A stretch of DNA of 37,631 bases, from the NCBI RefSeq assembly GCF_000336935.1, contig NZ_AOME01000013.1:1-37631 (forward strand), in the 5' to 3' direction. The position numbers and the translations under genes are program-made. Below are positions 16,760 to 33,942 of this stretch, piece after piece. Numbering within the stretch: the first letter of the stretch is position 1; the number at the start of each line of letters is the position of its first letter. The notes below the pieces were generated by a model, which searched no databases, was not told the DNA's origin, and was given only the letters and a program-made list of their open reading frames with translations. This DNA comes from Halococcus salifodinae DSM 8989 (lineage in GTDB: Archaea > Halobacteriota > Halobacteria > Halobacteriales > Halococcaceae).

Positions 16760-19006
16760 CTATGAGTCGTTTCGTCTACCCTTTCGATGACTGCGACCGG
16801 AACCAGCCTTCCGGTTTCCGTACTCTGTCTCGTTGGTGTAGGTGTCGAACAGGTTGAATCGGTCCCCGAAGTTCGTCGTGATCGGAACCGATGGATTGCC
16901 ATTCAGGTTGTTCGTGCCGTCGGTCACCGCACCACCAAGGCGGAGGTCCGAACCGAGAGCTTCGGCGATCGTGTTTAGATTCGTCCGGGCTACTTCGGGG
17001 ACAGCCCCACCGAGCAGGACGACGGCACCACCGTCTTTCCGGAACGTACGGACAGCATCGAGTTCGGTCTCGGTGTAGGCTTCGGTGGGCGCAGTAATCA
17101 GCAGTGCTCGGCCGTTGCCGAGTAGCTCAGCTCCGAAGCCTGTTGCGAGTTGGTTGACCCCTTCGAACGCGATATCGACCCCTTCGAGATACCGCAGATA
17201 GTAGGCGGCATCCTCGGCCGAGAGCGCATAGCTCGCGGCGAACTGACCGTGGCCACCGTCGATGAGCACTGGTGCTTCCCCGTACTCGTCAGAAGCGTTC
17301 CTCTCCGGCGGTCCAGCACGGTCCGGCGGCCCCGCGTGAGGCGGTGGTCCACCGTTGCCAGGGGTATCGGGTGGCCCAGCATGGAGAGGAGGCCCGCGGC
17401 CGGCGGTGGCGGCGGTCCGCGACAGCAAGTGCGTCAGGAAGACGTAGTTGCCGTAGCCATTCGTCTCGACTGGATACCCCTCGGCGATCTCGTAGGCTTC
17501 ATCGACGAACGGTGATCCGACCATCGCGATCCCGGCGTCATCGTCGACCGCGATGAGCGGTGCGTTCGGCGTCGAGGCAGTGGCCTCGGCACGCACGGGC
17601 ACACGACCACTCAGATCGCCACTCGCGCTCTCGATGGCGGCTGCCCGCGGGACGAAGAGCTCCTCGACGGGATCGTTCCGAATCGACTCGGCGTTCGCTG
17701 GATCGCTCGCGGACCACACGTTTCGGCCGGTCTCTCGGGCGTCGAGTTCAGCGGCGAGGAACTCGTCGTGGCGTGCCAGCCCGGAATCGTACACGCGGGC
17801 GTGACCTGCGTCGATCACCCGGTGGTTGTAGAGTGTCTCGCGACTCCCAGAACCATCGGCGTCGTACGTGAGGTAGCCGAGCACGCGCCCGAACTCGTCG
17901 CGAGCTGGCTCGTTCGCGTCGAAGCTGAGGTCGACTCGCTGCCCGGGCGATAGTTCACCCCTCGCGAACGCGGTGGCCGCGTTGCCCGCAGCTTCGAGAT
18001 AGTCGTACGATTCGATTCCTTCCCACTCCTCGGCGCGCTCGGTGCTGGTCGCACTCCCCGTCTCGGGCGTGTCGATACCGAGCACCCGAATGGCCGTCTC
18101 CTGACCCCCTTCGAAACGGACATCGACCGTGTCGCCGTCGGTGACTTCGACGACTTCGACGGTGTAGGTCTTCGAGGGATCGAGTTCGAAGCCGAGGCCC
18201 TCACGGTCGGCAAAGTAGTCGAACGCGGTGTTGAAGTTCGAGGTCAACGGTACGAAGGGTGCGTAGAGGTTGTTCTCGGGGTCGTACACCTGATCGTCGT
18301 TGAACCGGAAGCCCGTGCCGATGGCTTCGGCGATCGCATTGAGGTTCGCCGTCGCGTCGAAGTTATTGAAATCCGACTGATCGAACAGCAGCAGTGTGCC
18401 CCCGTTTGCGACGAACGCCACGAGCGCGTCGCGTTCGGCGGCCGAGAAGACCTCCGAAGGCGAGGTGACGATCGCCGCATCGGCTCCTGTGAGGTCGGCA
18501 GCGATGTCCGTGGTCGCGGCGATTTCGTACCCGTTCGCTTCGGCGTAGCCGATGAACGCGCTGAATTTCTCGGTGTCGTAGAACTGCCCGTGCCCCTCGT
18601 CGAAGACGACGGTCGGGCCGTCAGCCTCGGCATCGAGAACGTTGAGCAGGAACTCCTCGTTACCGTAGTTGAAGTCGGTATCGTCCTGGCCGATCGGCGC
18701 ACCGAAACCCACGATCCCGTCGTCGCTCGCTACGAGGGGAATCGGTGTTCCATCGGGGTACGAAACGGCGTCACCGTTCCCATCCGCGTCGCCATTGTAC
18801 GCGGTGGATTCGGCCCAGACTGCGACCAGCGAGTCGTCGGTCAGGGGTCGTTCGTTCCCGTCGAGAAGGCTCGCCGTCGAGTCGAACGCGAGAGGTCGTA
18901 TCGTCCCGTCGGTTGCCAGCAGTTCCTGGGAGGACGCTGCGCCTGCTCCGGAGAGCGCCGTAGCGCTTGTCGCTCCCAGTGCGGTCAAAAAGGTTCGTCG
19001 TCGCAT
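16760..19006 (-). CDS. Tat-exported staphylococcal-nuclease-like protein with a duplicated accessory domain
   Basis: Predicted secreted nuclease of 748 residues. The N-terminus RRRTFLTALG plus an Ala-rich core is a twin-arginine signal. Residues 280-431 are an SNase domain with the catalytic set in place: D290 (VTDGDT), R307 (IRVLGIDTPE), D312, E315 and R374 (FGRVLGYLTYD). On both sides sits a related unit: residues 88-263 (PLVASDDGIVGFG...DEGHGQF...LNAIAEAIG...VPLTSNF) and 483-713 (PLIAVDDDAGIAM...DGGHGQF...LNTIAEALG...VPITTNF). These resemble the glutamine-amidotransferase-like folds of DUF4350-type proteins. The second copy contains a Gly/Pro/His linker at 537-568, and the protein ends in a basic tail. 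A role in degrading environmental DNA is plausible. Confidence 0.88.
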   Translation of the reverse strand: MRRRTFLTALGATSATALSGAGAASSQELLATDGTIRPLAFDSTASLLDGNERPLTDDSLVAVWAESTAYNGDADGNGDAVSYPDGTPIPLVASDDGIVGFGAPIGQDDTDFNYGNEEFLLNVLDAEADGPTVVFDEGHGQFYDTEKFSAFIGYAEANGYEIAATTDIAADLTGADAAIVTSPSEVFSAAERDALVAFVANGGTLLLFDQSDFNNFDATANLNAIAEAIGTGFRFNDDQVYDPENNLYAPFVPLTSNFNTAFDYFADREGLGFELDPSKTYTVEVVEVTDGDTVDVRFEGGQETAIRVLGIDTPETGSATSTERAEEWEGIESYDYLEAAGNAATAFARGELSPGQRVDLSFDANEPARDEFGRVLGYLTYDADGSGSRETLYNHRVIDAGHARVYDSGLARHDEFLAAELDARETGRNVWSASDPANAESIRNDPVEELFVPRAAAIESASGDLSGRVPVRAEATASTPNAPLIAVDDDAGIAMVGSPFVDEAYEIAEGYPVETNGYGNYVFLTHLLSRTAATAGRGPPLHAGPPDTPGNGGPPPHAGPPDRAGPPERNASDEYGEAPVLIDGGHGQFAASYALSAEDAAYYLRYLEGVDIAFEGVNQLATGFGAELLGNGRALLITAPTEAYTETELDAVRTFRKDGGAVVLLGGAVPEVARTNLNTIAEALGSDLRLGGAVTDGTNNLNGNPSVPITTNFGDRFNLFDTYTNETEYGNRKAGSGRSHRKGRRNDS

Positions 19007-20728: not shown

Positions 20729-20759
20729 GCGGTTTTATAGGGGTCATCGGAGAGCTCCG

Positions 20760-20829
20760 TAGTTTTGCGCGAGTCCTCCCCAGCAGTTGTGAGATCCAGC
20801 GTGCGAGATACAGGGCGCGTATCTTGCAC
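20760..20829 (-). repeat. End unit A: hairpin plus core, left end of cassette 1
   Basis: Hairpin at 20801-20829: arm GTGCGAGATAC, 7-nt loop AGGGCGC, arm GTATCTTGCAC, with 10 of 11 pairs. Read on the minus strand, a 22-nt spacer leads to the core GAGGACTCGCGCAAAACTA (20778 to 20760), which aligns with GAGGACTTCCGCTAAACACTA of unit E allowing small gaps. Loop plus flanks (ATACGCGCCCTGTA) match unit D over 14 nt. The core faces the aldehyde dehydrogenase gene and the hairpin faces the membrane-protein gene. Confidence 0.65.
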
Positions 20830-20830
20830 C

Positions 20831-20861
20831 AACCCTCTTGCTATTACTGACAGAGGGGGTT
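20831..20861. repeat. Second hairpin next to end unit A
   Basis: AACCCTCT (20831-20838) pairs with AGAGGGGGTT (20852-20861) with one bulge and a 13-nt loop. It lies one base beyond the unit A hairpin and upstream of the promoter of the small membrane-protein gene. It might act as a terminator for read-through from the aldehyde dehydrogenase gene or be part of the cassette end. Confidence 0.45.
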
Positions 20862-20880
20862 CGATAGCCAAAACAACAGA

Positions 20881-20888
20881 TATATTAT
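20881..20888 (+). promoter_or_regulatory. TATA box of the cassette 1 gene
   Basis: TATATTAT, 29-36 nt upstream of the ATG at 20917. It lies inside the paired end units, so the captured gene appears to carry its own promoter. A GGAGAG sequence at 20894-20899 is too far from the ATG for a normal ribosome-binding site. Confidence 0.55.
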
Positions 20889-20916
20889 CTGAAGGAGAGA
20901 ACCGCCGACACTCGGT

Positions 20917-21408
20917 ATGATAAGCCGGTCATGGTACTTCCCCATCCTCTACGTAATAAGCTACCTCTACTACCTCATCGGAACGTTAGTCATCCCCTCG
21001 CTCCAGATGCCGTTGATATTGGTAACGAAAGTGCTTGCCGCCATCACCGGTTTCATCCTCTTGTTTTCCTTCCCGCTGCTCGCTATCTTTCTGTATCGAG
21101 ACGCGAAAGCCATAATGATCGCTGACCGAGAGTGGGAACCAAAGCCAATACACTACGGAATTCTCGGCCTCGCCCCGATTCTGGCGATGATTCCTGCCAT
21201 CACCTTCTCGAACATCCCACAGGTCGCCACCACCGATTTCTACGCAGTAGCCGTTCCAGCAACGACCATGCCAGTAAACACGCAGGGCATCATAGCGTTT
21301 TGCCTCACGCTGGTTCCCTTAGCTGTCTGTGTGTGGTATCTCTACCGACGCCGGCAACGAGTAGGACTTACGTCGACTCTTGGACCCACCGTCGAATTAC
21401 AATCGTAA
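20917..21408 (+). CDS. Uncharacterised four-helix membrane protein (cassette 1 cargo)
   Basis: Protein of 163 residues with four predicted membrane helices (about 6-26, 30-58, 78-97 and 120-141), a short charged loop YRDAKAIMIADREWEPKP after helix 2, and a basic cytoplasmic RRRQR near 143-148 after helix 4. It is not acidic and uses many A/T-ending codons (ATA, GTA, TTG), unlike the GC-rich neighbours. I recognise no family. It is the only gene between end units A and B and has its own TATA box, which suggests acquisition as a unit. Function unknown. Confidence 0.75.
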   Translation: MISRSWYFPILYVISYLYYLIGTLVIPSLQMPLILVTKVLAAITGFILLFSFPLLAIFLYRDAKAIMIADREWEPKPIHYGILGLAPILAMIPAITFSNIPQVATTDFYAVAVPATTMPVNTQGIIAFCLTLVPLAVCVWYLYRRRQRVGLTSTLGPTVELQS

Positions 21409-21461
21409 GGACCGCCGAACGCCTACGAGAGCTTTAGTTCATGTCTTGCAGGCTCGATAAC

Positions 21462-21474
21462 CTCATGGTATGAG
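21462..21474. repeat. Small hairpin before end unit B
   Basis: CTCAT (21462-21466) and ATGAG (21470-21474) form a perfect 5-bp stem with a 3-nt loop, 54 nt after the membrane-protein stop and 17 nt before the unit B hairpin. It may be a terminator; there is no T-tract. Confidence 0.35.
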
Positions 21475-21491
21475 ATTGCGACAGAGACCAG

Positions 21492-21557
21492 ATGCGAGAT
21501 AGATCCTCTGTATCTCGCACGCCGATTTCAACAGGTAGTCATTCCGCAAAAGCACAA
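21492..21557 (+). repeat. End unit B: hairpin plus core, right end of cassette 1
   Basis: Hairpin at 21492-21520: arm ATGCGAGATAG, 7-nt loop ATCCTCT, arm GTATCTCGCAC. A 20-nt spacer (its start CGATTTCAACA resembles CGGCTTCAACA of unit C) leads to the core ATTCCGCAAAAGCACA at 21541-21556, comparable to CTTCCGCTAAACAC of units D and E. It is opposite in orientation to unit A, so the two form facing ends around one gene. Confidence 0.65.
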
Positions 21558-21646
21558 CGTGTGATGACTTCGGCCAATCCCCATCGCAGCCGTGGTGATC
21601 GTGCACCGTTGACGGAAGCCGTCGTCTCCTTCGAGAGGGCAGACGA

Positions 21647-22075
21647 TCACTCCATACCGCGCTCCGCCGCTCCCGCCCGTATCTCCGCGGCGCGTTCGCG
21701 AACCCACGATGTGTAGCGCTCGACTTTGCTGGGCTTCACGCCGTAGAACGACGCGACCCAGTTGACGTCCGTCTCGGGTTGGGTGAGGAGATACGCGGCG
21801 AGCGTGTCACGACCGGCCTGGATGATTGCCGGTGGGACGCCCCGCACACCCGTTCCTTCCTCCTGGAACCCGTTCACGTCGAAGTAGACGGCGGCGTACA
21901 ACTCCGCGAGGTCGGGATCGTCGAAGGTGATCCCGTCGTGGTGTGGCGCTTCGAACCGATAGCGCGGCCCCTCGCCGGTCGCCGAAACGTGTTCCGTGAT
22001 TCGCACGCCGAGGACGTACTCCCTGAACGACGATTCGCCCCGTTCGACGCCGGATGCGTCATCGGACTGTGCCAT
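21647..22075 (-). CDS. Uncharacterised acidic protein with a possible helix-turn-helix end
   Basis: Protein of 142 residues. After a short acidic start, residues 18-75 look beta-rich (EYVLGVRITEHVSATG, YRFEAPHHDGITFDD). Residues 78-140 are helical and end WVASFYGVKPSKVERYTSWV, which resembles a helix-turn-helix of the kind used for DNA binding, though weakly. I do not recognise the family. A TTAAGCC box lies about 28-34 nt upstream of the ATG at 22075. The gene is divergent from the DUF2298 gene, and codon use is host-like. Confidence 0.7.
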   Translation of the reverse strand: MAQSDDASGVERGESSFREYVLGVRITEHVSATGEGPRYRFEAPHHDGITFDDPDLAELYAAVYFDVNGFQEEGTGVRGVPPAIIQAGRDTLAAYLLTQPETDVNWVASFYGVKPSKVERYTSWVRERAAEIRAGAAERGME

Positions 22076-22244
22076 GCTGGACGAACCATCCTACGAGTCG
22101 GGCTTAAGTCGTTGTAATTGCGCTATATACCCCTCGGGACGGGTTGGGAACGCTACCAGCCGGGTTGGTGTTCCGATCCCGTTCGAGCGGTGTCGGCCCG
22201 GCAAGCAAAAGCGTATTACGGGCTTGCGGTTACCGTTCGGACGG

Positions 22245-24695
22245 ATGGAGTACGGCCTCGTCGTGGTGTGGTGGGTGGCTGTCGTCGGGCTCGCGCTGTT
22301 CGGCCTGCCGGTCGCCGCGTGGCTTTGCTCGACGCTGCCAGGCCGCGGCGCAGGGTTCTCGCTCGGCATCGCGTTGACGATCGTGACGCTCGTCGCGTTC
22401 TGGGTCGGCCACCTCGCGCTTGGGTGGGTGGCTCTCGGGGCTGGCCTCGTGGCGCTCGCGGTCGCGGCGGTGCTCGCGGTACGAGCAGGCGTCGCCATCG
22501 ACCGCCGGGCGGCTACCGAGGCGCTCGTGGTGTTCACCGTCGTTTACCTCGGTGTTCTCGTCGTGCGGTCGGTCGAGCCGGGAATCACGCCCGGCGGCGA
22601 GAAGTTCCTCGATTTCGGATTGGTGGCCTCGCTGTACCGTGCCCCGCAGCTACCGCCGGAGGACTTCTGGTTTGCGGGGGAGTCGTTGATCTACTACTAC
22701 GGCGGTCACTTCCTCGCGTCGCTGTTGACCCGACTCACGGGCACTCATCCGTGGTTCGGATTCAATCTCTCGATGGCGGTGTTTTTCGGGACGCTCGCGG
22801 CTGGAGCGTACGAACTCGCGGGCTCGATCGCGGCCAGCCGATCCGGCGACGATTCGATCGGCTCACAGTCTGCCTCACACGGGTCGGCCGGTCCGGATTC
22901 GGCCATCACTGCCGACTCGGTCACTACCGCCGACTCGGCCGTCGACTCGCGCTCGACCGGCGGTCGTGTCACGACCGGACTGTATGATCGCCGTGAGCGC
23001 GTCATCGCCGGTGTCACGGCAGTCTTTTTCACGGTCTGTGCGAGCAACCCCTCGACTGCGATCCGGTTGCTGGTGCGGCGGCTTCCGGCGGCGATCCGCG
23101 ACGAGGCCGCGACGGCGTTCGCGGCGGCCCACTCACAGCTCGTGACCGAGTGGGTCCTCGAACCGATCCCCCAGGGGTACAACTACAAGGTCGCCAGTCG
23201 GATCATTCCTCTGACGTACGACCCGTTTCCGCTGTTCGGGATCGTGCGGGGCGACATCCGGCCCTACCTCCTGAGTACGCCCTTTCTGCTCGTCGTGGCG
23301 GGACTCTGCTACGCCTACTACCGCACGCCCGCGACCGCGGTCCGCCGTCGTCGCGCGGTGGTCTTCGGTGCGATTCCCATCGTCGGCGGGTTCATGGCCG
23401 TCGTCAACACGTGGAGTTTCCCGACGGTCCTCGGCCTGCTGTGGCTCTCGCTGACGTTTGCCGATGCGGAACTGCGCTCGCTGCTCCCGGCGATCACGGC
23501 CACGGCTGTCGATCGGTTCGTCGGCAACCCAGGGTCCGACACGTCTCGCAGCATGGTGCGCGGCACGCTCGCCCGGACGATCGGGGCGACGGGGATCACG
23601 GTCGGTGCGGGGGTCATCGGGGTGCTCGTCGCGCTCCCCTTCCTCCTCGGGCCGGTGGGGTCGCGCCCGAGCACGCCCATCGTCGTCCTCGAAGCCGCCG
23701 CACGCAGTTCGCTCGGGTCGTTGCTGCTCGTCCACGGGGCGTTCCTCGCGGTGCTCGTCGCCACCTCGTTCGCGTGGCTCCGCGGCCGCGTGGCGACGTC
23801 GGTCGTGACCGCCGGTCTGCTCGCCTTTCTCGTCCTCGTCGCGGTCGCTCCGGCGCCGCTCGCGCCGTTCGCGCTGTTCGGCCCGCTGCTCGCCGTGGGC
23901 TGGTACGCCCTCGCCACCGATCGCGATGTCGGCTACGAGGGCGTGCTCGTGGTCGCCGGCCTCGGGCTCGTGCTTTTCGCCGAACTCGTGTACGTCAGGG
24001 AGGGCGGTGGCAGCCGGTTCAACACCGTCGTCAAGACCTACATGCCGACGTGGATCCTCTGGGCGAGCGCGACCGGGGTCCTTCTCCCGCGGCTCGTCCG
24101 TGGGCGGGGCGAGTGGTCGTGGAGCCGTCGCCGCCAGCAAGTCGGTGCCGTGCTCGCCGCGCTGCTCGTGATCTCGACTGCGGTCTACGGCGGGGTTGCA
24201 CTCAAGGGCCACTTCGACGATCCCGACACCGGCGGCTCGACGCTCGATGGCCTCGCCGCGGCCGAGGAGAACATTCCTAATCAGGTCGCCGCCATCCGCT
24301 GGCTCGACGACCGTTCCGGCCGGCCGACGATCGTCGCCGCACCCGGTATCGCGGTCTACGACTGGAGCGCCAGTCCGGCGTCGAGCCTCACGGGCTTCCC
24401 GACGATCGCCGGTGTCTCCCACGAGATCCAGTACCGCAGCCGGGAGGCGTACGTCGATCGCGTCCGAGCAGTCAACACCGTCTACCTCGGCTCGGACGGC
24501 TGGCGAGCCGAACTGCTCTCTCGGCACGACGTGGAGTACGTGTACGTCGGGCCGGCCGAACGCGATCGCTACGGTGATATCCGGCCGTTCGATGGGCTTC
24601 CCGGCGTCACAGTCGCGTTCAGTGCCGACGACGTGACGATCTACGCCGTGAACGGGAGTCGCCTGCCCGAGAGCGACCGGAACGTCTCGGGGTGA
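22245..24695 (+). CDS. DUF2298 (YYY-type) multi-pass membrane protein, GT-C-like
   Basis: Large membrane protein of 816 residues with about a dozen helices. The family mark is a conserved acidic and aromatic loop after the first helices (KFLDFGLVASLYRAPQLPPEDFW, in part, then SLIYYYGGHF near 145-155). DUF2298 proteins are regarded as probable glycosyltransferases of the GT-C fold, so a role in lipid-linked glycan or surface glycoprotein sugar transfer is inferred. Residues about 203-245 are an unusual Ser/Asp/Thr-rich loop with repeated ADSV/ADSA units. A soluble C-terminal part follows the last helix (about 660-816). ATG 22245 is chosen because a GTATTACG box lies about 30 nt upstream; the earlier open frame is extension. 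Confidence 0.87.
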   Translation: MEYGLVVVWWVAVVGLALFGLPVAAWLCSTLPGRGAGFSLGIALTIVTLVAFWVGHLALGWVALGAGLVALAVAAVLAVRAGVAIDRRAATEALVVFTVVYLGVLVVRSVEPGITPGGEKFLDFGLVASLYRAPQLPPEDFWFAGESLIYYYGGHFLASLLTRLTGTHPWFGFNLSMAVFFGTLAAGAYELAGSIAASRSGDDSIGSQSASHGSAGPDSAITADSVTTADSAVDSRSTGGRVTTGLYDRRERVIAGVTAVFFTVCASNPSTAIRLLVRRLPAAIRDEAATAFAAAHSQLVTEWVLEPIPQGYNYKVASRIIPLTYDPFPLFGIVRGDIRPYLLSTPFLLVVAGLCYAYYRTPATAVRRRRAVVFGAIPIVGGFMAVVNTWSFPTVLGLLWLSLTFADAELRSLLPAITATAVDRFVGNPGSDTSRSMVRGTLARTIGATGITVGAGVIGVLVALPFLLGPVGSRPSTPIVVLEAAARSSLGSLLLVHGAFLAVLVATSFAWLRGRVATSVVTAGLLAFLVLVAVAPAPLAPFALFGPLLAVGWYALATDRDVGYEGVLVVAGLGLVLFAELVYVREGGGSRFNTVVKTYMPTWILWASATGVLLPRLVRGRGEWSWSRRRQQVGAVLAALLVISTAVYGGVALKGHFDDPDTGGSTLDGLAAAEENIPNQVAAIRWLDDRSGRPTIVAAPGIAVYDWSASPASSLTGFPTIAGVSHEIQYRSREAYVDRVRAVNTVYLGSDGWRAELLSRHDVEYVYVGPAERDRYGDIRPFDGLPGVTVAFSADDVTIYAVNGSRLPESDRNVSG

Positions 24696-24734
24696 GTACC
24701 GGTGTTCGATGTGAACACGATCCGGTGGACGATG

Positions 24735-25490
24735 TCACGCCGCCGCGGACTGGAGCCACGGCAACTGTCGGGCACCGAGCCACCGGATCAGCGTCGAGGA
24801 GGCGTACCCCAGTAGGCCGACCGCGACCATCCCGACGACGACGTTCGGGTACTCACCGGCGGTGAAGGCGTTCCAGATGAAGTAGCCGAGACCGGTGCTC
24901 GACAGCAGTTCCGCGGCAACCAGGCTGACCCACGCCAACCCCATCGCGTTGACGAGTCCCGTGTAGATCGAGGGGAGCGCACCGGGCAAAACGACGTGAC
25001 GCAGGGTCTGTGACGAGGAGGCCCCGAGCGAGCTGGCCGCCTGTGAGAACTCCTCCTCGACGCCCTGAACCCCTTCGATCGTGTTGAGGAGGATCGGGAA
25101 GAAGGCGGCGAGGAAGATGATAAAGCGGACGATGTTCGCGGGGTTGATCAGGATGATCGTCAGCGCCGGGAACCACGCGATCGGCGGGATCGGGCGGAGC
25201 ACTTCGAGCGACGGAAAGACGAGGTCCTCGACGACCGCGCTTCGCCCGATCAACAGCCCCAGCGGGATTGCGACCACCGCGGCGATCACGAAGGAGAGAT
25301 ACACTCGAAACGTGCTCAACAGGACCTCCTCCCAGAACGACGCTCCGGTCGCCGCGTCGACGAACGCCACCACTACCTCCGGTGGCGTGGGAAGACTCGG
25401 TACTGCGCCGACGATCATGGTCGCGACGATCCAGACCGCGAGCAGCGCCAGCAGCGACACCGACTGCTCGGCGCGCCGGACGTACTCCAT
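24735..25490 (-). CDS. ABC transporter permease B (nitrate/sulfonate/taurine class)
   Basis: Permease of 251 residues with six membrane helices and the binding-protein-dependent transport signature. The EAA-like coupling loop is ASSLGASSSQTLRHVVLPGALPSI near 147-170 (in part). It is the last gene of a four-gene operon; its ATG overlaps the ATPase TGA by one base. It shares the WFPALTIILINP and FFPILLNTIEG blocks with the first permease but is shorter and clearly different, so the importer may use a heterodimeric channel. Confidence 0.92.
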   Translation of the reverse strand: MEYVRRAEQSVSLLALLAVWIVATMIVGAVPSLPTPPEVVVAFVDAATGASFWEEVLLSTFRVYLSFVIAAVVAIPLGLLIGRSAVVEDLVFPSLEVLRPIPPIAWFPALTIILINPANIVRFIIFLAAFFPILLNTIEGVQGVEEEFSQAASSLGASSSQTLRHVVLPGALPSIYTGLVNAMGLAWVSLVAAELLSSTGLGYFIWNAFTAGEYPNVVVGMVAVGLLGYASSTLIRWLGARQLPWLQSAAA

Positions 25491-26389
25491 CAGGCCCGTC
25501 CCTCCGCTTGCTCCATCGCGCGTTCGGCCTCGTCGTGGATGCTCTCGCTGGCGCGGCGCTGGAGTTCGTTGAAACGGTCGGTGGTGACCATGTCGGTGTC
25601 ACGCGGCCGATCGAGATCCACGTCGATGACGTCCTTCACTTGCCCTGGGCGGGCGGTCATCACGACCACCCGATCCGCGAGCAGAATTGCCTCCTCCACG
25701 TCGTGGGTGATGAAGAGCACGGTTCTATCGTCGTCCTCCCAGACGTCGAGCAGCTTCTCCTGCATCAGCTCCTTGGTCATCGCGTCGAGCCCGCTGAACG
25801 GTTCGTCCATCAGCATGATGTCGGGGTCGTTCGCGAGCAGTCTGGCGAGCTCGGCGCGCTGTTGCATCCCGCCGGAGAGCTCGTGTGGATAGGAATCCTC
25901 GAACCCCTCCAACCCCATCTGATCGAACAGCCTGTCGATCCGGCTCTGGTCGACCGCGTCGCGCATCTGGGGACCGAACCGGACGTTCTCGGTGATCGTC
26001 TTCCAGGGGAACAGTCGGTTCTCTTGGAAGACCACTCCCCGGGTGGGGTCGGGCCCGTCGACGGAATCTCCGTTGACCAGCACCTCGCCCTCGGTGGGGT
26101 CGAGATAGCCCGCGATACACTCCATCACGGTGGATTTCCCGCAGCCCGAGGGGCCGAGCACGGTCACGAACTCCTCGGCCTCGATATGGAGATCCATCGA
26201 GTCGACGGCCGTCAACTCGCCGCTGTCGGTGCCGTACACCTTGGTCATGTCTTTGATATTGACGGTGCCGGTCCCGCTCGACTCCGTCCACGACCGGAAC
26301 TCCTTGTCGGTCGCGTCGGCATCGTTGGTCGCGTCGGTGTGTTGTTCGTCCGTGGCGGTACGAGCGTTGGTGGGGTCACGTTCACTCAT
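25490..26389 (-). CDS. ABC transporter ATP-binding protein (nitrate/sulfonate/taurine class)
   Basis: ATPase of 299 residues. An acidic, disordered N-terminal extension of about 40 residues precedes the fold; Walker A is GPSGCGKST at 79-87, the Q-loop is VVFQENRLFPW, the signature is LSGGMQQRAELARLL, Walker B is IMLMDEPFSGLD, and the switch His is in FITHDVEEA. These match the SsuB/TauB/NrtD group. The ATG at 26389 shares ATGA with the stop of the upstream permease. A longer frame that continues upstream overlaps that permease and is rejected. Confidence 0.93.
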   Translation of the reverse strand: MSERDPTNARTATDEQHTDATNDADATDKEFRSWTESSGTGTVNIKDMTKVYGTDSGELTAVDSMDLHIEAEEFVTVLGPSGCGKSTVMECIAGYLDPTEGEVLVNGDSVDGPDPTRGVVFQENRLFPWKTITENVRFGPQMRDAVDQSRIDRLFDQMGLEGFEDSYPHELSGGMQQRAELARLLANDPDIMLMDEPFSGLDAMTKELMQEKLLDVWEDDDRTVLFITHDVEEAILLADRVVVMTARPGQVKDVIDVDLDRPRDTDMVTTDRFNELQRRASESIHDEAERAMEQAEGRA

Positions 26390-27246
26390 GATCGTTCCTC
26401 CGTCGTGGACCACGACATCAGCCAGTGGCCGAGACGCTCGACCAGCAGCGACGACGCATAGCCGAGCGCGCCGACGGCGAGCATGCCGATGACGACGATC
26501 TGGTTCTGCAACAATCGCGATCCTTGCATGATGATGTAACCGAGTCCGGGACCACCGGTGAGCAGCTCCGCGGCGACGACCGTGATCCAGCCCAACCCGA
26601 CACCGAGCGAGAGCCCGGTGATGATCGACGGCAGCGTCGCCGGCAGCACCACGTGGCGGAAAACATCTCCCGAGGATGCACCGAGGCTCTCCGCCGCCCG
26701 GCGGTACTCGGTCTCGATGTTCCGTGCGCCCTCGATGGTGTTCGTGAATATCGGGAAGAACGCCCCGACGAACACGACGAACAGCGCGGGCAGCGGCACC
26801 GAAACCGATCCCAGCGCGAGCGTCGGGAAGACGATGATGGCGATCGGGAGCCACGCGATCGGCGGGATCGGCCGAAACGCCTCGAGTGCGGGGTACAGCA
26901 GGTTTTCCCACCGCTGGCTCGTGCCCACGACCAGCCCGACCGGGATCGCGAACACGGCCGCGAACCCGACGCCGATCGCTACCCGTGCCGCCGAGTAGAC
27001 GGCGTGGAGATAGATGGTGTCGCCACCCTCGGTCAGGGGTTGGCCGGCGAGCGCACCGGCGAACTCCACGAGGGTCGTCACGGGGCTGGCGAAGTGATCG
27101 AAGTTGAGCACACCGAACCGGTAGCACAGCCACCAGACCGCGACGAACCCCACGAGCGAGAGGAGCTTCCGGAACCCCCTTGTCGGCGATGGAAGGCTCT
27201 CCGCGAACCGGTCGCCGATCCGTTCGGTCATCGACTGCGTACTCAT
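26386..27246 (-). CDS. ABC transporter permease A (nitrate/sulfonate/taurine class)
   Basis: Permease of 286 residues with six helices; the EAA-like loop is AESLGASSGDVFRHVVLPATLPSI near 180-203 (in part), followed by ITGLSLGVGLGWITVVAAELL. The N-terminal tail of about 25 residues carries basic residues before helix 1. The ATG at 27246 overlaps the substrate-binding protein stop by 4 nt (ATGA). It is first of two unlike permeases in the operon. Confidence 0.93.
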   Translation of the reverse strand: MSTQSMTERIGDRFAESLPSPTRGFRKLLSLVGFVAVWWLCYRFGVLNFDHFASPVTTLVEFAGALAGQPLTEGGDTIYLHAVYSAARVAIGVGFAAVFAIPVGLVVGTSQRWENLLYPALEAFRPIPPIAWLPIAIIVFPTLALGSVSVPLPALFVVFVGAFFPIFTNTIEGARNIETEYRRAAESLGASSGDVFRHVVLPATLPSIITGLSLGVGLGWITVVAAELLTGGPGLGYIIMQGSRLLQNQIVVIGMLAVGALGYASSLLVERLGHWLMSWSTTEERS

Positions 27247-28412
27247 CGTGACCCTCCGGACGCGTTGCCGATCGCCGAGCCGTTCGTCGCGGTGGAGCTG
27301 TTGCCGGCCGATCGCGGCGCCCACTCCACCGCGTCGTCGAGTTCGGCTGCTGCCTCGTTGAGTAGCTCCGGCTTGTACCGATCGTCGGACGGCGGCGCTT
27401 CGAGCGCCCCCTGGCGGGTGAGAAAGGCCGGTGCGGTCTCCTTCATCAACCGACCCGGCTCCTCCGTTTGCTCGTAGTCGGTCGCGTACCGCAGCCGTTG
27501 GACGTCCTCGCCGATCGGTGGGTCCTTGTAGACGCCCCAACGAAGCGTCGGTCGGTTGAAATATCGGAGGTCTTGTTCTTGGGCAACCAGGTCGAGGGTC
27601 CGCTCGTGGTCGGTGGCGAGCACCCGGGTCGCTTCGAGCTCGGCCTTCAGGATCCCTTTCGCCGCCTCTCGGTGGTTCTCGATCAGGTCGTCGGTCATCG
27701 GGATCCCGCCGGCGTCGATCACGTTGTACTCCGCACCGGTCGAGACGTATCGGGTGAGATTGTCCTGGAAGACCGATTTCGCGATCGAGGGTTCCCAGCC
27801 GACTCCCGCGGCGATTCGGCCCTCTCGGAGATTGGCGAGAATGGTCGAGATACCGGTATCCTCAACGGTCACATCGATACTTTCCTCCTCGAGCACCCGG
27901 AGAAGATACCGGTGAGAACACGCCCCGACCGTGACGCCGACCGTCTCACCGTCGATGTCGGTGGTCCGTTCGATATCGGAGCCCTTCGGGACGACCAGAA
28001 GGTTACACTGCTGGCCCCGTGACCAGTTCGCGAGCCCGACGAGGCTAGCCGGGGTTTCGTTCTGGGCGATGGTCGTCAGCGCCGGCATGTCGCCCATCCA
28101 GCCCGCCTGGTTCTTGCCGACGCTGATTCGGTTGCCGATGACCGCCCCCTGAAGCGCCGACTGCCAGTTCAGTGAGTATCCTTCGGGGAGGTACTTCTGT
28201 GGGATGTCGCTGTGTTTCATGACGAGCGCCTCCCATGCGTGGGCGGAGAACGGCTGGTAACCCATCGTCAGTGTCTGCCCGGTGCCGGACGCGGCACCGA
28301 GACACCCGGTTAACGCGCCGGTTCCCGCAATGGCCGACGCTTGGAGGAATCGTCGGCGCGACGAACTTGTCGTCTCGTCTTTCGATAATGGATTATCGTT
28401 CACTTTTGTCAC
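27243..28412 (-). CDS. Tat lipoprotein substrate-binding protein of the ABC importer
   Basis: Solute-binding protein of about 389 residues. The signal SSSRRRFLQASAIAGTGALTGC combines a twin-arginine motif with a lipobox Cys (GALTGC), the usual haloarchaeal way to anchor binding proteins (sequence quoted in part). The fold resembles the NrtA/SsuA/THI5-like group: GYQPFSAHAW, GAVIGNRISVGKNQAGWMGDMPAL, ATDHERTLDLVAQEQDL. The ligand cannot be assigned; nitrate, sulfonates, taurine or thiamine precursors are candidates. GTG 28412 is used, with GTG 28403 as an equally good start; longer in-frame starts add a non-signal-like basic segment. Confidence 0.86.
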   Translation of the reverse strand: MTKVNDNPLSKDETTSSSRRRFLQASAIAGTGALTGCLGAASGTGQTLTMGYQPFSAHAWEALVMKHSDIPQKYLPEGYSLNWQSALQGAVIGNRISVGKNQAGWMGDMPALTTIAQNETPASLVGLANWSRGQQCNLLVVPKGSDIERTTDIDGETVGVTVGACSHRYLLRVLEEESIDVTVEDTGISTILANLREGRIAAGVGWEPSIAKSVFQDNLTRYVSTGAEYNVIDAGGIPMTDDLIENHREAAKGILKAELEATRVLATDHERTLDLVAQEQDLRYFNRPTLRWGVYKDPPIGEDVQRLRYATDYEQTEEPGRLMKETAPAFLTRQGALEAPPSDDRYKPELLNEAAAELDDAVEWAPRSAGNSSTATNGSAIGNASGGSR

Positions 28413-28644
28413 CGTTCGACCATCGGTTGGTTGGCGCACGCTCCGATACGAACCGCGACCGACGTTCACGCGAGACCGTAAAATCGACGACGCGGCCAGT
28501 CTCGCTCGCATCGAGTGCAAGATGTCGGTAGTACGTAGTGTGGCTGTTTCGGGCCTAACCCTGTCGCCTGCGAATGAAAGTCTCCTCAGCTCGTTCCCGC
28601 AGCTCACCGGTCTCGCGGCGAGATTGGCGACGTTCGTCCCGCAG
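28413..28644. other. Intergenic region with the ABC operon promoter
   Basis: It holds no convincing gene. On the minus strand it should contain the promoter of the ABC importer operon, but no strong TATA box is evident. An inverted pair CTCG/CGAG around CTCGCAT lies near 28500-28515. Short frames crossing it are not supported. Confidence 0.4.
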
Positions 28645-29427
28645 TCAGTCGGTCGTACTCGACCGGATCGTCCGCTCGGCCGCGTCGAGCGCCGCCTCGC
28701 GATCGAACTCCTCGACGACGGTTTCGAGCTCCTCTCGTGAGTCGTCGCGCAGCTCGCGGGCGTACTCCGCGATCAGTGGGAGTGCACGCACGAGGTTGTC
28801 GACGATCGGGACGTCCGCGACCTGAGGCGAGCGCGAGAGCGGGTTGAGATCGATCACGATCTCGGTTTTGCCCATCGCGTCGAGCGCTGCCGCCCGGTCG
28901 CCGTCCTCCAGCGGAACGAGCACGACGTCGGCGGCGTGGATACCGTCGGCGTCGACCGTCGCGCGAGCGTGATCTAGCCCTGGAATCTGCGCGTCGGCCG
29001 CGAGCCCCAGCACCTCGCTCGCACCGTGCTCGCGGAGGTGCTCGGCGATCGCTGCCATCCGTTCCTCGGTGCGATTGAAGAGGTTCACCTCGATGTCTGC
29101 GTCCGTCGCTTGTGCGAGGTCGACCACCGCATCGGGACACAGCGCCGCGACGTTGCCGTTCACGGAGATCACGGGGTGGTCGGCGAGCAGGAACTGCGCG
29201 GCGGCGGCGCGGGCGGCCGCGTCGGCACTTTCGATGGTGCGCTCGCCGAGTAGGTAGTCGTACGCCTCGCCGCGCCCCTGAGCGATGAGTCCCTGACGCG
29301 ACGTGATGCCTTTCTCGACACCGTCCTCGATCCGATGACGCGCAAGCAGCGACTCGTGGCGGGGGTGTGACTCCGGGATCGCCGTCTCGTCGTCCGGATC
29401 GACGGGAATCTGCGGCTCCTCGCTCAT
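28645..29427 (-). CDS. 4-phosphopantoate--beta-alanine ligase
   Basis: Archaeal phosphopantothenate synthetase (DUF137 family), 260 residues. It joins 4-phosphopantoate and beta-alanine using ATP, the archaeal replacement for bacterial PanC. Family blocks: IPESHPRHESLLARHRIEDGV at about 17-37 (in part), TSRQGLIAQGRGEAYDYLLGE, VISVNGNVAALCP, EVNLFNRTEERM and VIDLNPLSRSPQVADVPIVDN. Pantoate kinase lies 58 nt upstream on the same strand and supplies its substrate. Confidence 0.93.
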   Translation of the reverse strand: MSEEPQIPVDPDDETAIPESHPRHESLLARHRIEDGVEKGITSRQGLIAQGRGEAYDYLLGERTIESADAAARAAAAQFLLADHPVISVNGNVAALCPDAVVDLAQATDADIEVNLFNRTEERMAAIAEHLREHGASEVLGLAADAQIPGLDHARATVDADGIHAADVVLVPLEDGDRAAALDAMGKTEIVIDLNPLSRSPQVADVPIVDNLVRALPLIAEYARELRDDSREELETVVEEFDREAALDAAERTIRSSTTD

Positions 29428-29485
29428 ACGACCGTTCGGCCGGTGAGCGACAAAAACACCCCGTGTTGGCGGCAGCCGGAAACAG

Positions 29486-30376
29486 TCATCGAGAGTCGAT
29501 CCCGACGATCCCCGCACCCGGAGGGTGGATCGTACAGGTCGCAGGCTCGTAGCCCGCGTCGGTGAGGCCGGTGTCGAGCGCGAACACCGTTTCACCGAGC
29601 ATTGCCATCGACGCCGCGCCGCCCGCGGCCTCGACGGCCCCGATGGCGGTCTCGACCCGCTCGGTCAGCAGCTCGGCCTCGCGAGCGAACGCTGCCGAGC
29701 ACGACACCATCCGTTGGAGTGTCGGTCCTTCGCGGAGCGTGGCGAGTGCGCGCTCGCCGGCCGCCGAGAGCCCGTCGGTGTCGCCGCCGAGGATCGCCTC
29801 GGTCGAACGCCCATCGAACGAGACGAACTCGACCCGCCTGTCAGCCCGAACCGGAATCCCGTCGAGAGCGCCGTGCGGCGGCGCGCCCGGCTCCATCCGG
29901 ATCGGCACGCCACCACGCGCCTGTGCCACCACATCGCCGAGTCCTGTTCCGGCGGTGACCTCCGCGGCGTGAGCCACGCCGACCAGCTCGTTCTCGGTAC
30001 GTTCGAGGTCGAAGCAGGCGTTCGCCGCGAGCGCCGCGCCGAGCGCCGCGCCGCCCGAGACGCCGAAGCCAGCGCTCACCGGCAACGGCGTCTCGACGGC
30101 AACGTGAGCGTCGACTCCGAGCGTGTCGAGCGTGCGCGTCACGGCGTCCATCTCGGCGGGTTCGCCACCGAGGGTGATGGTCGTCGCGGCCGTTTCGTTC
30201 GCTGGCGTGAGCGTAACCATCACGCCGTCGGCGAGCGCGAGCCCCGTTCCCCGCGACCCCGCCTTGCGGGGATCGTCGTGAGGATGAACGCTGAAGAATC
30301 CCGTGATATGACCGGGAACGAACGCCCGCGTCGGGGTCGCCGTCCGCTCACTTCGCTCCCCGTCCGACGTCGACAT
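29486..30376 (-). CDS. Pantoate kinase
   Basis: GHMP-superfamily kinase of 296 residues phosphorylating pantoate in archaeal CoA synthesis. The start motif AFVPGHITGFF, the ATP-binding PVSAGFGVSGGAALGAALA near 101-119, and GTGLGDVVAQARGG near 146-159 fit the family. ATG 30376 is chosen because a GATTTATCC box lies about 22-30 nt upstream; the earlier in-frame ATG at 30463 overlaps that box. It is first gene of a two-gene CoA operon and divergent from the FNT gene. Confidence 0.92.
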   Translation of the reverse strand: MSTSDGERSERTATPTRAFVPGHITGFFSVHPHDDPRKAGSRGTGLALADGVMVTLTPANETAATTITLGGEPAEMDAVTRTLDTLGVDAHVAVETPLPVSAGFGVSGGAALGAALAANACFDLERTENELVGVAHAAEVTAGTGLGDVVAQARGGVPIRMEPGAPPHGALDGIPVRADRRVEFVSFDGRSTEAILGGDTDGLSAAGERALATLREGPTLQRMVSCSAAFAREAELLTERVETAIGAVEAAGGAASMAMLGETVFALDTGLTDAGYEPATCTIHPPGAGIVGIDSR

Positions 30377-30604
30377 ACGAGGGAATCGGCCGTCGGCCGG
30401 GATAAATCCGCGCGTTCGGCGATCGGTCGATCCCCTGTTCGTGGCGGGCTCGTGATCGCACAAGACTTGGCCGCGAACGCCGGGAAAAGCGCTTTGTGCG
30501 AGTCACCGCTACGGGACAAACGACGACGTAAGGTGGGGATCGGTCGTCGGTTTCACGAATCAAAACGGATCGCTACCGATCGTGACCTCGCTACACCCCC
30601 GAAA

Positions 30605-30610
30605 ACATAT
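30605..30610 (+). promoter_or_regulatory. TATA-like box for the FNT gene
   Basis: ACATAT ends 28 nt before the ATG at 30638, supporting that start. The divergent interval 30377-30637 otherwise holds no gene; a possible imperfect operator (GGATCGCTACCGATC) lies near 30568-30582. Confidence 0.45.
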
Positions 30611-30637
30611 GAGCGATCCCCACCAGCAGCGATACCG

Positions 30638-31585
30638 ATGAACGACGACAACGACGCGGGCGGGGCGATCGCCGAGTCGACCGATCACGCCGCCTCGGGT
30701 GCGCCCGACGCCGGCTGGGCGATCGGCGACCGTTTCTCCTCGGAGGAGATCTTCCAACGGGTGCTCGCCACCGCCGACGAGGAGGTCGCCACCGGCACCC
30801 GCGAACTGTTCTTCAGCGGCCTCGCCGCGGGCTTTGCCATCGTCATCACGTTCGTCGGTCACGCGGCGGTGAGCGCGTACTTCCCCGAGAGTACGCTGCT
30901 TGGCTCCCTTTTGTATCCGATCGGCTTCATCTACATTATCCTCGGGCGCTACCAGCTCTACACCGAGAACACGCTACCGCCCGTGGCGCTGGTGCTGGCT
31001 CGCCTCGCCAGCCTGCCGATGATGGTGCGCGTCTGGGTCGTCGTGCTGCTCGGCAACGTCCTCGGAGCCGCTCTCGGCGTGTTCGTCCTCGCCAACAGTC
31101 ACGTGCTCTCGACCGCGGCAATGCAAGCAGGTGCTGATTTCACCCGGACGGGACTCGAAACCGCCTGGTGGGACGTGTTCTTCAAGGCACTGTTCGCGGG
31201 CTGGCTCGTTGCCGGCGTGGTGTGGCTCGGTCACGCCGTCCAGGACTCGGTCACGCGCCTGTTCCTCATCTACATCGTGTTCTACACGATCGCCGCGGCG
31301 GAGCTCTATCACGTCGTCACCACTGCGGCGGACGCGCTCTTTTTCGTGTTCATCGGAGAAGCCGGACTCCTCACCGTCGGCTACGCGTTCTGGCTTCCGG
31401 TGTTGCTTGGCAACACTGTCGGCGGCGTCTTCCTGGTGGCGCTCGTGAACTACGGGCAGACCGAACGCCAGCGCTTCCCCGAAGTCCGTGGACTCTCGCT
31501 GCGCGAGTGGCTCGTCGGCTGGGAGGGTGGTCGCGAGCGTGAGCCGGTGAACATCAAGGAGGCCGGCCCAAGAGACGACGATTGA
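30638..31585 (+). CDS. Formate/nitrite transporter (FNT) family protein
   Basis: Membrane channel of 315 residues. An acidic N-terminus of about 45 residues precedes six helices in the FNT order, with ELFFSGLAAGFAIVITFV (helix 1), LYPIGFIYIILGRYQLYTENTL (in part; the FNT selectivity-loop region) and FAGWLVAGVVWLGHAV. FNT proteins form pentamers moving small monovalent anions such as formate, nitrite or hydrosulfide; the substrate here is not known. The long open frame upstream is antisense to the pantoate kinase gene and is excluded by the TATA position. It converges with the PiT gene (76-nt gap). Confidence 0.9.
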   Translation: MNDDNDAGGAIAESTDHAASGAPDAGWAIGDRFSSEEIFQRVLATADEEVATGTRELFFSGLAAGFAIVITFVGHAAVSAYFPESTLLGSLLYPIGFIYIILGRYQLYTENTLPPVALVLARLASLPMMVRVWVVVLLGNVLGAALGVFVLANSHVLSTAAMQAGADFTRTGLETAWWDVFFKALFAGWLVAGVVWLGHAVQDSVTRLFLIYIVFYTIAAAELYHVVTTAADALFFVFIGEAGLLTVGYAFWLPVLLGNTVGGVFLVALVNYGQTERQRFPEVRGLSLREWLVGWEGGREREPVNIKEAGPRDDD

Positions 31586-31661
31586 CCGAGACCGCCGCTC
31601 CGCCGGGAACGCCGACGCGCTCCGCGAGGCAGCGTGCGGACGGTCCGTCAGGACGAACCGT

Positions 31662-32852
31662 TCACAGCAGTTCGATCGCGGTGATCACGGCGTAGCCCGC
31701 CCCCAGCGCCAGCACGAGCGAACCGATCCACGCGAGCACGGTGTAGCCCATTTTCCGCGCGCTGACGCCGCCCCCACCGGCCGCAAAGCCGCTACCGATC
31801 ACCGCGCTCACGATGATCTCGTTGAACGACACCGGGATCCCGAAGACGACCGCCGTCTGGGCGATCGCGAAGGAGGGGATGAGCGCCGCGATGGATCGCC
31901 GCGGCCCGAGCGAGGAGTAGTCCTGCGCGATCGCCTTGATCATCCGGGGCGCGCCCATCCACGATCCGGCGAGCAGGCCGATCCCGCCGAACACCAGCAG
32001 CGCGAGCAACGACACCGAAAACGGCAGGGTCGTTCCCTGAAACGCGGCGAGCAGCGGGCCGACCGCGAGCCCGACCTGGCTCCCGCCAGCCGAGAACGCC
32101 ACGAGGCCGCCGAGCGCCAGCAGGAAGTGGCGTTCGGCGCTGTCGACGCCCGAGCTGAGGTCCCAGACGAGCGCGCCTGCGACGAGACCGGCGACGGCGA
32201 CCGACACGAGTCCCGTCCCGATCGTCGTCGATAGCGGGAGATCCGTCGCCACCGCGGCGGCGATCGACGCCCCGCCGGAGTCCGAGCCGAGAAGCGTGAA
32301 GGGGACGTTCGCCACGATGAGACCGACGATCCCGCCGAGGACCGGGACGGTGTAGCGCTCGGGGATCGCCTCGTGGCGGAGCGTCCGCGCGGTGACGTAT
32401 GCGATACCGCCACCGACGAACGGCGTGAGCAGCCACAGCGTGCCGATCTCGACGTACTTCGGCCAGACGGGGCTGCCACCGAGCCCGAGCCCGACGCCGA
32501 CGACCGCTCCCGTCACGGTGAACGCGGTGGCGATCGGATAGCCGGTGAAGATGCCGACCGCGACGAGCGCCGCCGCGAGCAGGAGGAGTACCGTCGACGC
32601 CGTCGGCGAGAGCGAGATCCCGCCGACCAGTCCTGTGCCGACCGCGTCCGCGACGTTCGCGCCCTGGAGCACCGCACCGAGGAAGCCGAGAATGCCGACG
32701 AGAAAGCCCGCGCGCATCACCGAGATGGCGCGTGCGCCCACGGCGGGCGCGAAGGGTGTCGATCCCGACGATCCCGCGCCGATGGTCCACGCCATGAACA
32801 GGCTGGCGACGGTCGCGACGACGAGGACGGCTGCCGTTCCGGCCGCGACCAT
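31662..32852 (-). CDS. PiT-family inorganic phosphate transporter
   Basis: Low-affinity phosphate transporter (PHO4 family), 396 residues and about ten helices. The two duplicated signature regions are visible: GSSGSTPFAPAVGARAISV near 27-45, with LQGANVADAVGTG, and later SFNEIIVSAVIGSGFAAGG near 344-362. A haloarchaeal-type NANDxAN equivalent is modified as GARAIS. No phoU-like gene is adjacent. The start ATG at 32852 gives the standard N-terminus. The promoter region contains end unit C about 180 nt further upstream. Confidence 0.91.
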   Translation of the reverse strand: MVAAGTAAVLVVATVASLFMAWTIGAGSSGSTPFAPAVGARAISVMRAGFLVGILGFLGAVLQGANVADAVGTGLVGGISLSPTASTVLLLLAAALVAVGIFTGYPIATAFTVTGAVVGVGLGLGGSPVWPKYVEIGTLWLLTPFVGGGIAYVTARTLRHEAIPERYTVPVLGGIVGLIVANVPFTLLGSDSGGASIAAAVATDLPLSTTIGTGLVSVAVAGLVAGALVWDLSSGVDSAERHFLLALGGLVAFSAGGSQVGLAVGPLLAAFQGTTLPFSVSLLALLVFGGIGLLAGSWMGAPRMIKAIAQDYSSLGPRRSIAALIPSFAIAQTAVVFGIPVSFNEIIVSAVIGSGFAAGGGGVSARKMGYTVLAWIGSLVLALGAGYAVITAIELL

Positions 32853-33029
32853 CCGTCAGACCGTCCTCCGGAAATCCGCTCTCGTCGTCGGCACGTCGCC
32901 CGCCCTGCCGTCAAACACATTGGTCATGGTGATGCATCGACACCGCTCTCGGTTAAACTGTTGTTCCCGGCGGTCGCGTGGCGAGCCGAAGTTCGCCGGA
33001 GCGACTGACGATGCTATAGCAATCAGCAT

Positions 33030-33106
33030 TGATTTCAGAACCTCCATATTACAGGTTGTTGTGTTGTTGAAGCCGATGTGCGAGATGTAGAGGGTGTATC
33101 CAGCAC
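33030..33106 (-). repeat. End unit C: hairpin plus degenerate core, left end of cassette 2
   Basis: Hairpin at 33078-33106: arm GTGCGAGATGT, 7-nt loop AGAGGGT, arm GTATCCAGCAC, with 9 of 11 pairs counting wobble. On the minus strand the loop reads ACCCTCT, like ATCCTCT of unit B, and the first spacer bases CGGCTTCAACA resemble unit B. Further on, AATATG...TTCTG...AAA (33050 to about 33033) aligns loosely with AATATG...TTCCG...AAA of unit D. The core is the weakest of the five. Confidence 0.5.
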
Positions 33107-33184
33107 CCGTTCCTGGAATGCGATTCATTCAGCTTCCGGCAAATCTGCCAACTGAGTGTCTGGTTGATGACTGCTAGCATAGAT

Positions 33185-33778
33185 CTATCGAGTGGCGATG
33201 AGGACACCGACCGACTCAGTAATAATTTCGATATCGGTGAGCGTGAAGCCTGCACCTGCGAGGAGATTGGCGACAGTTCCCATCGGTGGCAGTGTTTCGT
33301 AATCGTTTGGGGTCTGCGTCGGCCCGAAGCGCATTTTGTCGGCCACCACTATACAACGAGGATTCAACGCCACGAGACCGTCGATGGCCGTGCGTAATTC
33401 GTCCTCGCTCCCTTCATCGTAGGCCATATACAGGGCGTAGCTGGCGACGACGACATTCACAGATTCCTCAATGTTCGGTTCACGAAATGATCCGTGATCG
33501 AATGAGACATTCTCGATACTGCGTCTTTCAGCCTTCTCTCGGGCGTACTGGAGCCACTCGTCGTAGATGTCTCGCCCTAACACGTGGTCACACTTCGATG
33601 CAAGTTCGAGAGCGACGATACCTGTGCCCGTACCGATATCGACCACGGTATCATCGCGCCCGATTGGAGCGTGCGTGAGAAGAGAGGACAGACACCTCTG
33701 GTACACCTCATCTGCCTCGCTGTCCGCATCGTAGTCCATCGGGGTGTAGCCGTGATAGTCGCGTTCCGTGTTGGTCAT
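33185..33778 (-). CDS. Class I SAM-dependent methyltransferase (cassette 2 cargo)
   Basis: Protein of 197 residues with a Rossmann methyltransferase fold. Motif I is VVDIGTGTGIVALELA near 45-60, motif II acidic residue in LGRDIYDEWL, and NVSFDHGSFREPN and VVVASYALYMA follow. No target-recognition domain is visible, so the substrate is unknown. A CATATCC box about 20-27 nt upstream supports ATG 33778 over the longer in-frame start at 33850. AT-richer codons set it apart from the transporter upstream. It is the only gene between end units C and D. Confidence 0.85.
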   Translation of the reverse strand: MTNTERDYHGYTPMDYDADSEADEVYQRCLSSLLTHAPIGRDDTVVDIGTGTGIVALELASKCDHVLGRDIYDEWLQYAREKAERRSIENVSFDHGSFREPNIEESVNVVVASYALYMAYDEGSEDELRTAIDGLVALNPRCIVVADKMRFGPTQTPNDYETLPPMGTVANLLAGAGFTLTDIEIITESVGVLIATR

Positions 33779-33932: not shown

Positions 33933-33942
33933 CAGCAATCGG

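Follow-up and report, generated by a model that had tools for sequence, protein, structure and literature searches.

A single-gene cassette of Halococcus salifodinae as a probable unit of an apparently undescribed, widespread haloarchaeal gene-swapping system with its own recombinase

How a lone membrane-protein gene comes to lie in a fixed place on a haloarchaeal chromosome is the question raised by a short segment next to an aldehyde dehydrogenase gene of Halococcus salifodinae DSM 8989. An initial annotation had proposed here a single-gene mobile cassette between two facing units, A and B, each with an 11-bp stem and a 7-nt loop. We analysed the whole stretch of 37,631 nucleotides (the window, G000:C13:1-37631) and compared the genome of this strain (G000) with those of nine congeners (G001–G009). 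The end units were scored with a site weight matrix trained with 56 sites, all taken from other genomes (leave-genome-out), and 200 shuffled windows gave a maximum of 15.6 bits. Sites A and B reached 42.9 and 35.1 bits against this maximum, in full agreement with the proposed pair of facing units, and a further copy, site C, reached 32.5 bits. With the same matrix, we identified 90 sites of at least 12.5 bits in 538 kb of sequence and 0 in shuffled sequence. On the evidence given below, positions 20735–21586 very probably form one unit of a modular haloarchaeal system for the exchange of gene cassettes.

The element opens with an alpha anchor (P-end of unit A; 20735–20811, minus strand), which extends from a CTATAA terminus, beside the stop codon of the aldehyde dehydrogenase gene, as far as the P-arm at 20801–20811. 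This anchor is one of 13 P-flanks with a common end point and is found with 98% identity after the same gene in G001. Site A (20801–20829, plus strand; GTGCGAGATAC agggcgc GTATCTTGCAC) is composed of this P-arm, the spacer AGGGCGC (20812–20818) and a C-arm (20819–20829). The gene cassette itself, or C-module, spans positions 20819–21502 (plus strand), and the only open reading frame between sites A and B (20917–21408, plus strand) encodes a 163-aa membrane protein, for which the Pfam search returned no family and which has a close homolog only in G005 among the 10 genomes of the genus. The cassette is closed by site B (21492–21520, minus strand; ATGCGAGATAG atcctct GTATCTCGCAC), with the C-arm at 21492–21502, the spacer at 21503–21509 (AGAGGAT when read from the P side) and the P-arm at 21510–21520. 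The latter begins the beta anchor (P-end of unit B; 21510–21586, plus strand), a member of a P-flank family of 23 copies. Outer ends of the A type occur elsewhere in the genus with 77–98% identity, and because the A and B end families both terminate near CCTATA(A/G), the element extends from about 20735 to 21586. The element is thus real but larger than the interval 20760–21557 first assigned to it; likewise, the 20–22 nt spacer and outer core described beside each stem are present but belong to a longer conserved outer end (20735–20811 in unit A, 21510–21586 in unit B). The remarks that the cargo is AT-richer and that the cassette has no recombinase of its own were both correct, the GC content being 0.52 in the cassette versus about 0.65 in the surrounding DNA.

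All sites share a layout of 11-bp arm, 7-nt spacer and 11-bp arm (29 bp), with a constant spacer length and a spacer that reads A-R-R-G-S-N-Y in one direction. Three arm types (GTGCRAGATAS, GTGCTGAATAS and GTGAYCGATAC) combine freely, so that many sites lack good hairpin potential, and the palindrome is most simply read as two recombinase-binding half-sites. Because the spacer sequence is asymmetric, each site is polar (P-arm, ARRGSNY, C-arm). An independent check on this polarity comes from the anchors, which are confined to the P side, where they occur with either spacer class. They form three families of 13, 23 and 5 copies (alpha, beta and beta2), each with about 64 conserved nucleotides past the arm and an end near CTATAR; a second P-side class is a family of 66-bp linkers. 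Read inward, the outer termini of all three anchor families have CTATAG-G/T-G-N-TTA in common, in the manner of a terminal inverted repeat, and may represent a second, separate boundary; no target duplications were seen outside the CTATAR termini. The linker cores (e.g., L032 8605–8699) contain an imperfect palindrome, CTGCCGAATTTCTGGCAG, that could be a terminator, an insulator or an inter-cassette binding site.

The C side consists mostly of unrelated sequence, namely gene cassettes, and 56 of about 90 C-flanks are singletons. For cassettes shorter than 3.5 kb, the median length is 969 bp and the mean GC content 0.53, and there is usually one main gene; the cargo includes HIT, EamA, CAAX protease-like, subtilase, alpha/beta hydrolase, GNAT, APH-like, aminoglycoside N-acetyltransferase-like and nickel-transport-like genes. 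Gene direction relative to the spacer types was mixed, and no rule was found. Two of the cassettes, at 1577–2290 and 3300–4112 of locus L035 (G007:C8), encode an APH-like phosphotransferase and a protein resembling aminoglycoside 3-N-acetyltransferase. Cassettes are oriented "+ ... -", linkers and recombinase modules "- ... +", and C- and P-modules alternate. We distinguished two spacer classes by their last bases, GC (AGGGCGC-like) or T (AGAGGNT-like). The two ends of a module almost always differ in class: this applies to 29 of 31 cassettes (15.7 expected by random re-pairing; 29 reached in 0 of 20,000 shuffles), to 11/11 linkers and to 12 of the 13 classifiable recombinase modules, or 52/55 modules overall.

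At the aldehyde dehydrogenase locus, relatives hold other content at exactly the same place, as the proposal of a mobile cassette had implied. Between the same alpha and beta anchors we identified the 163-aa gene in G000, a HIT-family gene in G001 and an EamA-family gene in G005. On the dehydrogenase side, the spacer in these three genomes is AGGGCGC or AGGGCGT; at the other end it is either AGAGGCT or AGAGGAT or has decayed, both sites being decayed in G005. The aldehyde dehydrogenase gene and alpha anchor of G001 are 92–98% identical to those of the window up to the spacer, after which an GTGACCGATAA arm and other DNA follow. The window cassette is found in G005 on another contig and in other surroundings (93% DNA and 95% protein identity); this copy has the C-arms GTATCTTGCAT and ATGCGAGATAG and both spacers as in the window, but its left P-arm is the CTGCTGAATAG of a linker and not that of the alpha anchor. 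At site A, homology with G001 stops at 20823 and homology with the G005 cassette starts at 20808, and the partner change between genomes falls inside the 7-nt spacer. The EamA cassette of G005 has a relative in an array of G007 (69% protein identity). After the dehydrogenase gene of G008 there is neither anchor, only about 230 bp. A short element in this genome (G008:C180, L065, about 8900–9010) encloses a hairpin between inverted ends, ATAGGGTCGGTTGT ... ACAACCGACCCTAT, and recalls the CTATAR termini of the anchors; it is possibly an unoccupied place or a different small mobile repeat. In a search for an exact empty site of the cassette on G000:C51, its flanks were not syntenic.

The position of the partner change bears directly on the likeness to IS200/IS605 elements or palindrome-associated elements (PATEs) that the initial annotation had drawn. 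On that account, the units would be near-terminal palindromes of IS200/IS605-derived non-autonomous elements, moved as single-stranded DNA by a Y1 transposase. The palindromes do lie near conserved outer termini (CTATAR), and PATEs, which also have near-terminal palindromes, are abundant in Haloquadratum (PMC3119063). SMR-A elements of the same genus, of about 110 bp, insert within PATE palindromes with no target duplication and have a mobilisation described as "enigmatic" (PMC3119063), and this insertion recalls that of linkers at the spacer. However, the likeness was not borne out: the sequence changes partner inside the 7-nt loop and not at a terminus beyond the hairpin, which is the behaviour of a tyrosine-recombinase spacer rather than of an IS605 or PATE end. 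Moreover, the spacer is constant at 7 nt, the arms on either side of it belong to different flanks, and many sites pair unlike arm types. The window element contains no tnpA; it also carries a gene, as do the other window units, whereas PATEs, compared here by description, are non-coding relatives of IS605 reported as too short to encode proteins. We consider such an origin very improbable.

Equally small is the probability that we assign to homologous recombination between dispersed intergenic repeats with no dedicated recombinase. The anchors, up to 90% identical over about 90 bp, would offer a substrate for it, but breaks at the spacer occur even where the outer flanks are unrelated (linker versus anchor), and homology gives no reason for the strict polarity or for the heterospecific pairing in 52/55 modules. 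Even less credible is that the dyads mark gene borders as RNA-level or regulatory elements such as terminators or operators. They are intergenic and palindromic, and some linkers hold a second short palindrome, yet an Rfam scan of the window returned no match, identity between genomes breaks inside the loop, and ends of this kind also delimit a recombinase module.

The exchange system would also account for the arrangement of the remaining sites in the window, where further copies of the units had been noted and were confirmed at 33078–33106 (site C), 33842–33870 (weaker) and near 36562 (decayed). A chromosomal segment between two beta anchors (21587–33013) is inverted in comparison with G005, G001 and G008, where the genes at 21.65–33.09 kb have the reverse orientation with respect to the dehydrogenase gene (21649–33092 in the synteny with G005). 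The segment is followed by the beta anchor of site C (P-end; 33014–33088, minus strand), another member of the anchor families, and by site C itself (33078–33106, plus strand) with the spacer AGAGGGT at 33089–33095. At one end, synteny is lost at site A (20807 or 20823); at the other, it stops within the spacer of site C in G005 (33092) and just beyond this spacer in G001 (33099). The second gene cassette (33096–33852) has a GC content of about 0.52 and a methyltransferase-like gene at 33185–33850 on the minus strand (Pfam Methyltransf_25 and others). It is closed by a weak site (33842–33870, minus strand; 12.3 bits) with an TTCCGCTAAACAC core and the spacer AGGGCGC from the P side, and then by a beta2 anchor (P-end; 33860–33935, plus strand) that resembles the 5-copy beta2 family and ends in CACTACAG at 33935.

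In the simplest history, element 1 (alpha–cassette–beta) and element 2 (beta–methyltransferase cassette–beta2, now at 33014–33935) would have flanked the segment on either side, and their facing AGAGGNT sites would have inverted it through a single crossover. The spacers of the two partners are AGAGGAT (site B) and AGAGGGT (site C). The arm GTGCGAGATGT of site C matches GTGCGAGACGT and GTGCGAGATGG beside the same flank in G001 and G005, which supports this single-crossover history. Element 2 would formerly have lain at the 21.6-kb end of the segment; in G005, no anchor was found at that end.

A third element begins at 36499–36590 (plus strand), where a beta2 anchor (36499–36572) is joined to the decayed site E near 36562, which has lost one base and scores 7.1 bits; its flank matches the site B region. 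The next intact site lies beyond the window, at contig position 39032, and the contig was covered up to 39060. Between the decayed left site and this right site at 39032, we observed an alpha/beta hydrolase gene (36884–37432) and then a transposase-like gene. Elsewhere in the genome, at 17698–17816 of locus L024 (G000:C108), where a contig end contains an N, a beta anchor and its site occur twice at a distance of 90 bp, either as a tandem duplication or as an assembly edge.

A candidate for the enzyme was found inside modules with the same ends. In G007, about 45 bp separate a site from the start of the gene that follows it, which encodes a tyrosine recombinase of about 245 aa. Close copies (at least 72% identity) in seven haloarchaeal families have at least one bracketing site of at least 10 bits in 24 of 25 loci and both in 14, whereas 0 of 3,000 in-gene control windows reach 10 bits. 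The length of this module is mostly 797–825 bp. By HMM, its product is a PF00589 protein that scores far below the cut-offs for XerA, XerC/D and integron integrase; the catalytic R, K, H, R, W and Y are kept in nearly all copies, and several copies have stop codons. Named copies reside on plasmids of Natrinema, Haloarcula, Halorubrum, Haloprofundus, Salinirubellus and others. On the Haloarcula marina plasmid NZ_CP100405.1 (L143, 7312–15760), linkers and intervening cassettes follow the recombinase module in series; an IS200/IS605 pair adjoins the module there. Given its position inside modules with the same ends, this tyrosine recombinase, rather than a Y1 transposase, is the likely agent of movement. 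Its nearest relative with a described role (about 43% identity) is Int1 of PhiCh1 and PhiH1, the recombinase of a tail-fibre inversion locus (PMC6210493). The two share a short form of about 225–245 aa, a CGYC motif, the same catalytic residues and a link to DNA inversion. Int1 differs in sitting within one phage invertible segment, and PhiCh1 Int1 was rejected as a carrier of the same sites, its locus having no R1-type site. A scan of viral contigs found no relative of the module recombinase.

Of the 392 genomes and 95 genera of the order, 129 and 56, respectively, have recombinase homologs. No clear sites border the more distant ones (L136 and L138–L140; 50–66% identity); these second-tier homologs may have sites of their own. 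Matches to the site model at E ≤ 0.01 were found in 269/392 genomes and 71/95 genera, although single matches may be due to chance. Among 84,980 species genomes, 14 of 16 exact matches to sites of the first arm type fall in haloarchaea, in about ten genera; similar sites are present in Halococcus thailandensis, and sites are located both on chromosomal contigs and on haloarchaeal plasmids. Five or more sites are commoner in genomes with a close recombinase (13/28 versus 56/364, Fisher p = 0.0002, with genomes treated as phylogenetically independent and a count of 19 standing for 19 or more).

Within the genus, G007 has 89 site matches, G000 about 30 and G002 0 (E ≤ 1). We rejected the idea that the module recombinase resides in every genome: close copies are present in G006 and G007 only, and G000, as well as G001, G003, G004, G005 and G009, has sites and no close copy. 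For G000, either the gene was lost, or transient DNA supplies the enzyme, or the reaction depends on a different enzyme, for example a XerA-like one. The last option corresponds to the same exchange system served by a XerA-type recombinase of the host, with the module recombinase gene as a passenger or occasional helper. Site-rich genomes that lack this gene do have an ortholog of the XerA-like gene G000:C51:130432, and the sites resemble dif in their 11-bp arms, short spacer and presumed use by a tyrosine recombinase. However, archaeal dif has a 6-nt spacer and is present in one copy per chromosome (PMC8371274), whereas here the spacer has 7 nt and copies are many; G002 has a XerA-like gene and 0 sites at E ≤ 1; and the module recombinase gene is bracketed by sites in its own module in seven families. 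We regard service by XerA as unlikely, though better placed than the other alternatives. For the sites themselves, identity with chromosomal dif was rejected, since most genomes contain many copies and G002, despite its XerA-like gene, has no site.

Based on these comparisons, we propose that the tyrosine recombinase would cut at the spacer edges, so that arms stay with their own flanks and partners swap inside the spacer. Gene cassettes would present C-ends on both sides, and anchors, 66-bp linkers and the recombinase module would present P-ends, which would produce the alternation. With one AGGGCGC-type and one AGAGGNT-type spacer per module, its own ends would be incompatible and could react with like sites elsewhere only. 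Two crossovers would then replace one cassette by another, as a natural recombinase-mediated cassette exchange, and one crossover between facing like sites would flip the DNA between them, as between B and C. Because its ends do not react with each other, a module would be stable, without self-inversion, and exchangeable whole by two crossovers; because the sites of a cassette are inverted, a lone cassette would not be simply excisable. We infer that the module recombinase is the catalyst, that exchange takes the double-crossover route and that the enzyme is supplied in trans to genomes without the gene.

Among known systems, the closest in its working is that of the Acinetobacter dif (pdif) modules, which are moved by XerCD and in which inversions and one-for-one replacements need equal or near-equal spacers (PMC13141974). 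Both have one or a few genes between inverted polar sites, two alternating kinds of module and rearrangement between like spacers, here seen in the locus swap, where one end keeps AGGGCGC/AGGGCGT and the opposite end AGAGGNT. The haloarchaeal system works like these modules, yet it stands apart from them in sites and hosts. Their sites consist of an 11-bp XerC arm, a 6-bp spacer and an 11-bp XerD arm, whereas ours have a 7-nt spacer and other arms; they reside on Rep_3/OrfX plasmids and depend on chromosomal XerCD for movement, whereas the present system is archaeal and largely chromosomal. It also has a recombinase gene in one kind of module, anchors and 66-bp linkers, and almost all of its modules end in spacers of two different classes. 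Integrons similarly combine a tyrosine recombinase with cassette arrays like that of the Haloarcula marina plasmid, but their sites all point in one direction, whereas here directions alternate, with 11-7-11 dyads at both ends instead of attC and no attI beside a fixed integrase. An integron was rejected, the integrase model TIGR02249 giving 18.7–20.9 bits against a cut-off of 265.

The literature that we searched, with most subscription journals lying outside it, holds no description of such a system, and novelty is accordingly provisional. We think it probable, with some reserve, that this is a previously undescribed class of mobile element: a haloarchaea-wide exchange system in which cassettes, linkers and the recombinase module each have two incompatible sites.

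Haloarchaea exchange genes freely, and to our knowledge no integron-like device is known in them. The system offers a testable mechanism, with defined sites, a spacer-class rule and a candidate enzyme, for the trade of single genes between species at fixed chromosomal spots. Besides aminoglycoside N-acetyltransferase-like and APH-like genes, the observed cargo includes transporters, hydrolases and a protease, and the sites are ready-made heterospecific sites for archaeal genetics. Heterospecific sites are the device that engineers use for recombinase-mediated cassette exchange. The principle behind dif modules has been reported as unique to Acinetobacter (PMC13141974); our comparison suggests an origin in another domain of life as well. 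Haloarchaea apparently possess a widespread and undescribed natural gene-swapping system with its own recombinase; if this is true, evolution built the engineers' heterospecific-site device, and haloarchaeal chromosomes keep fixed docking places for exchangeable genes.
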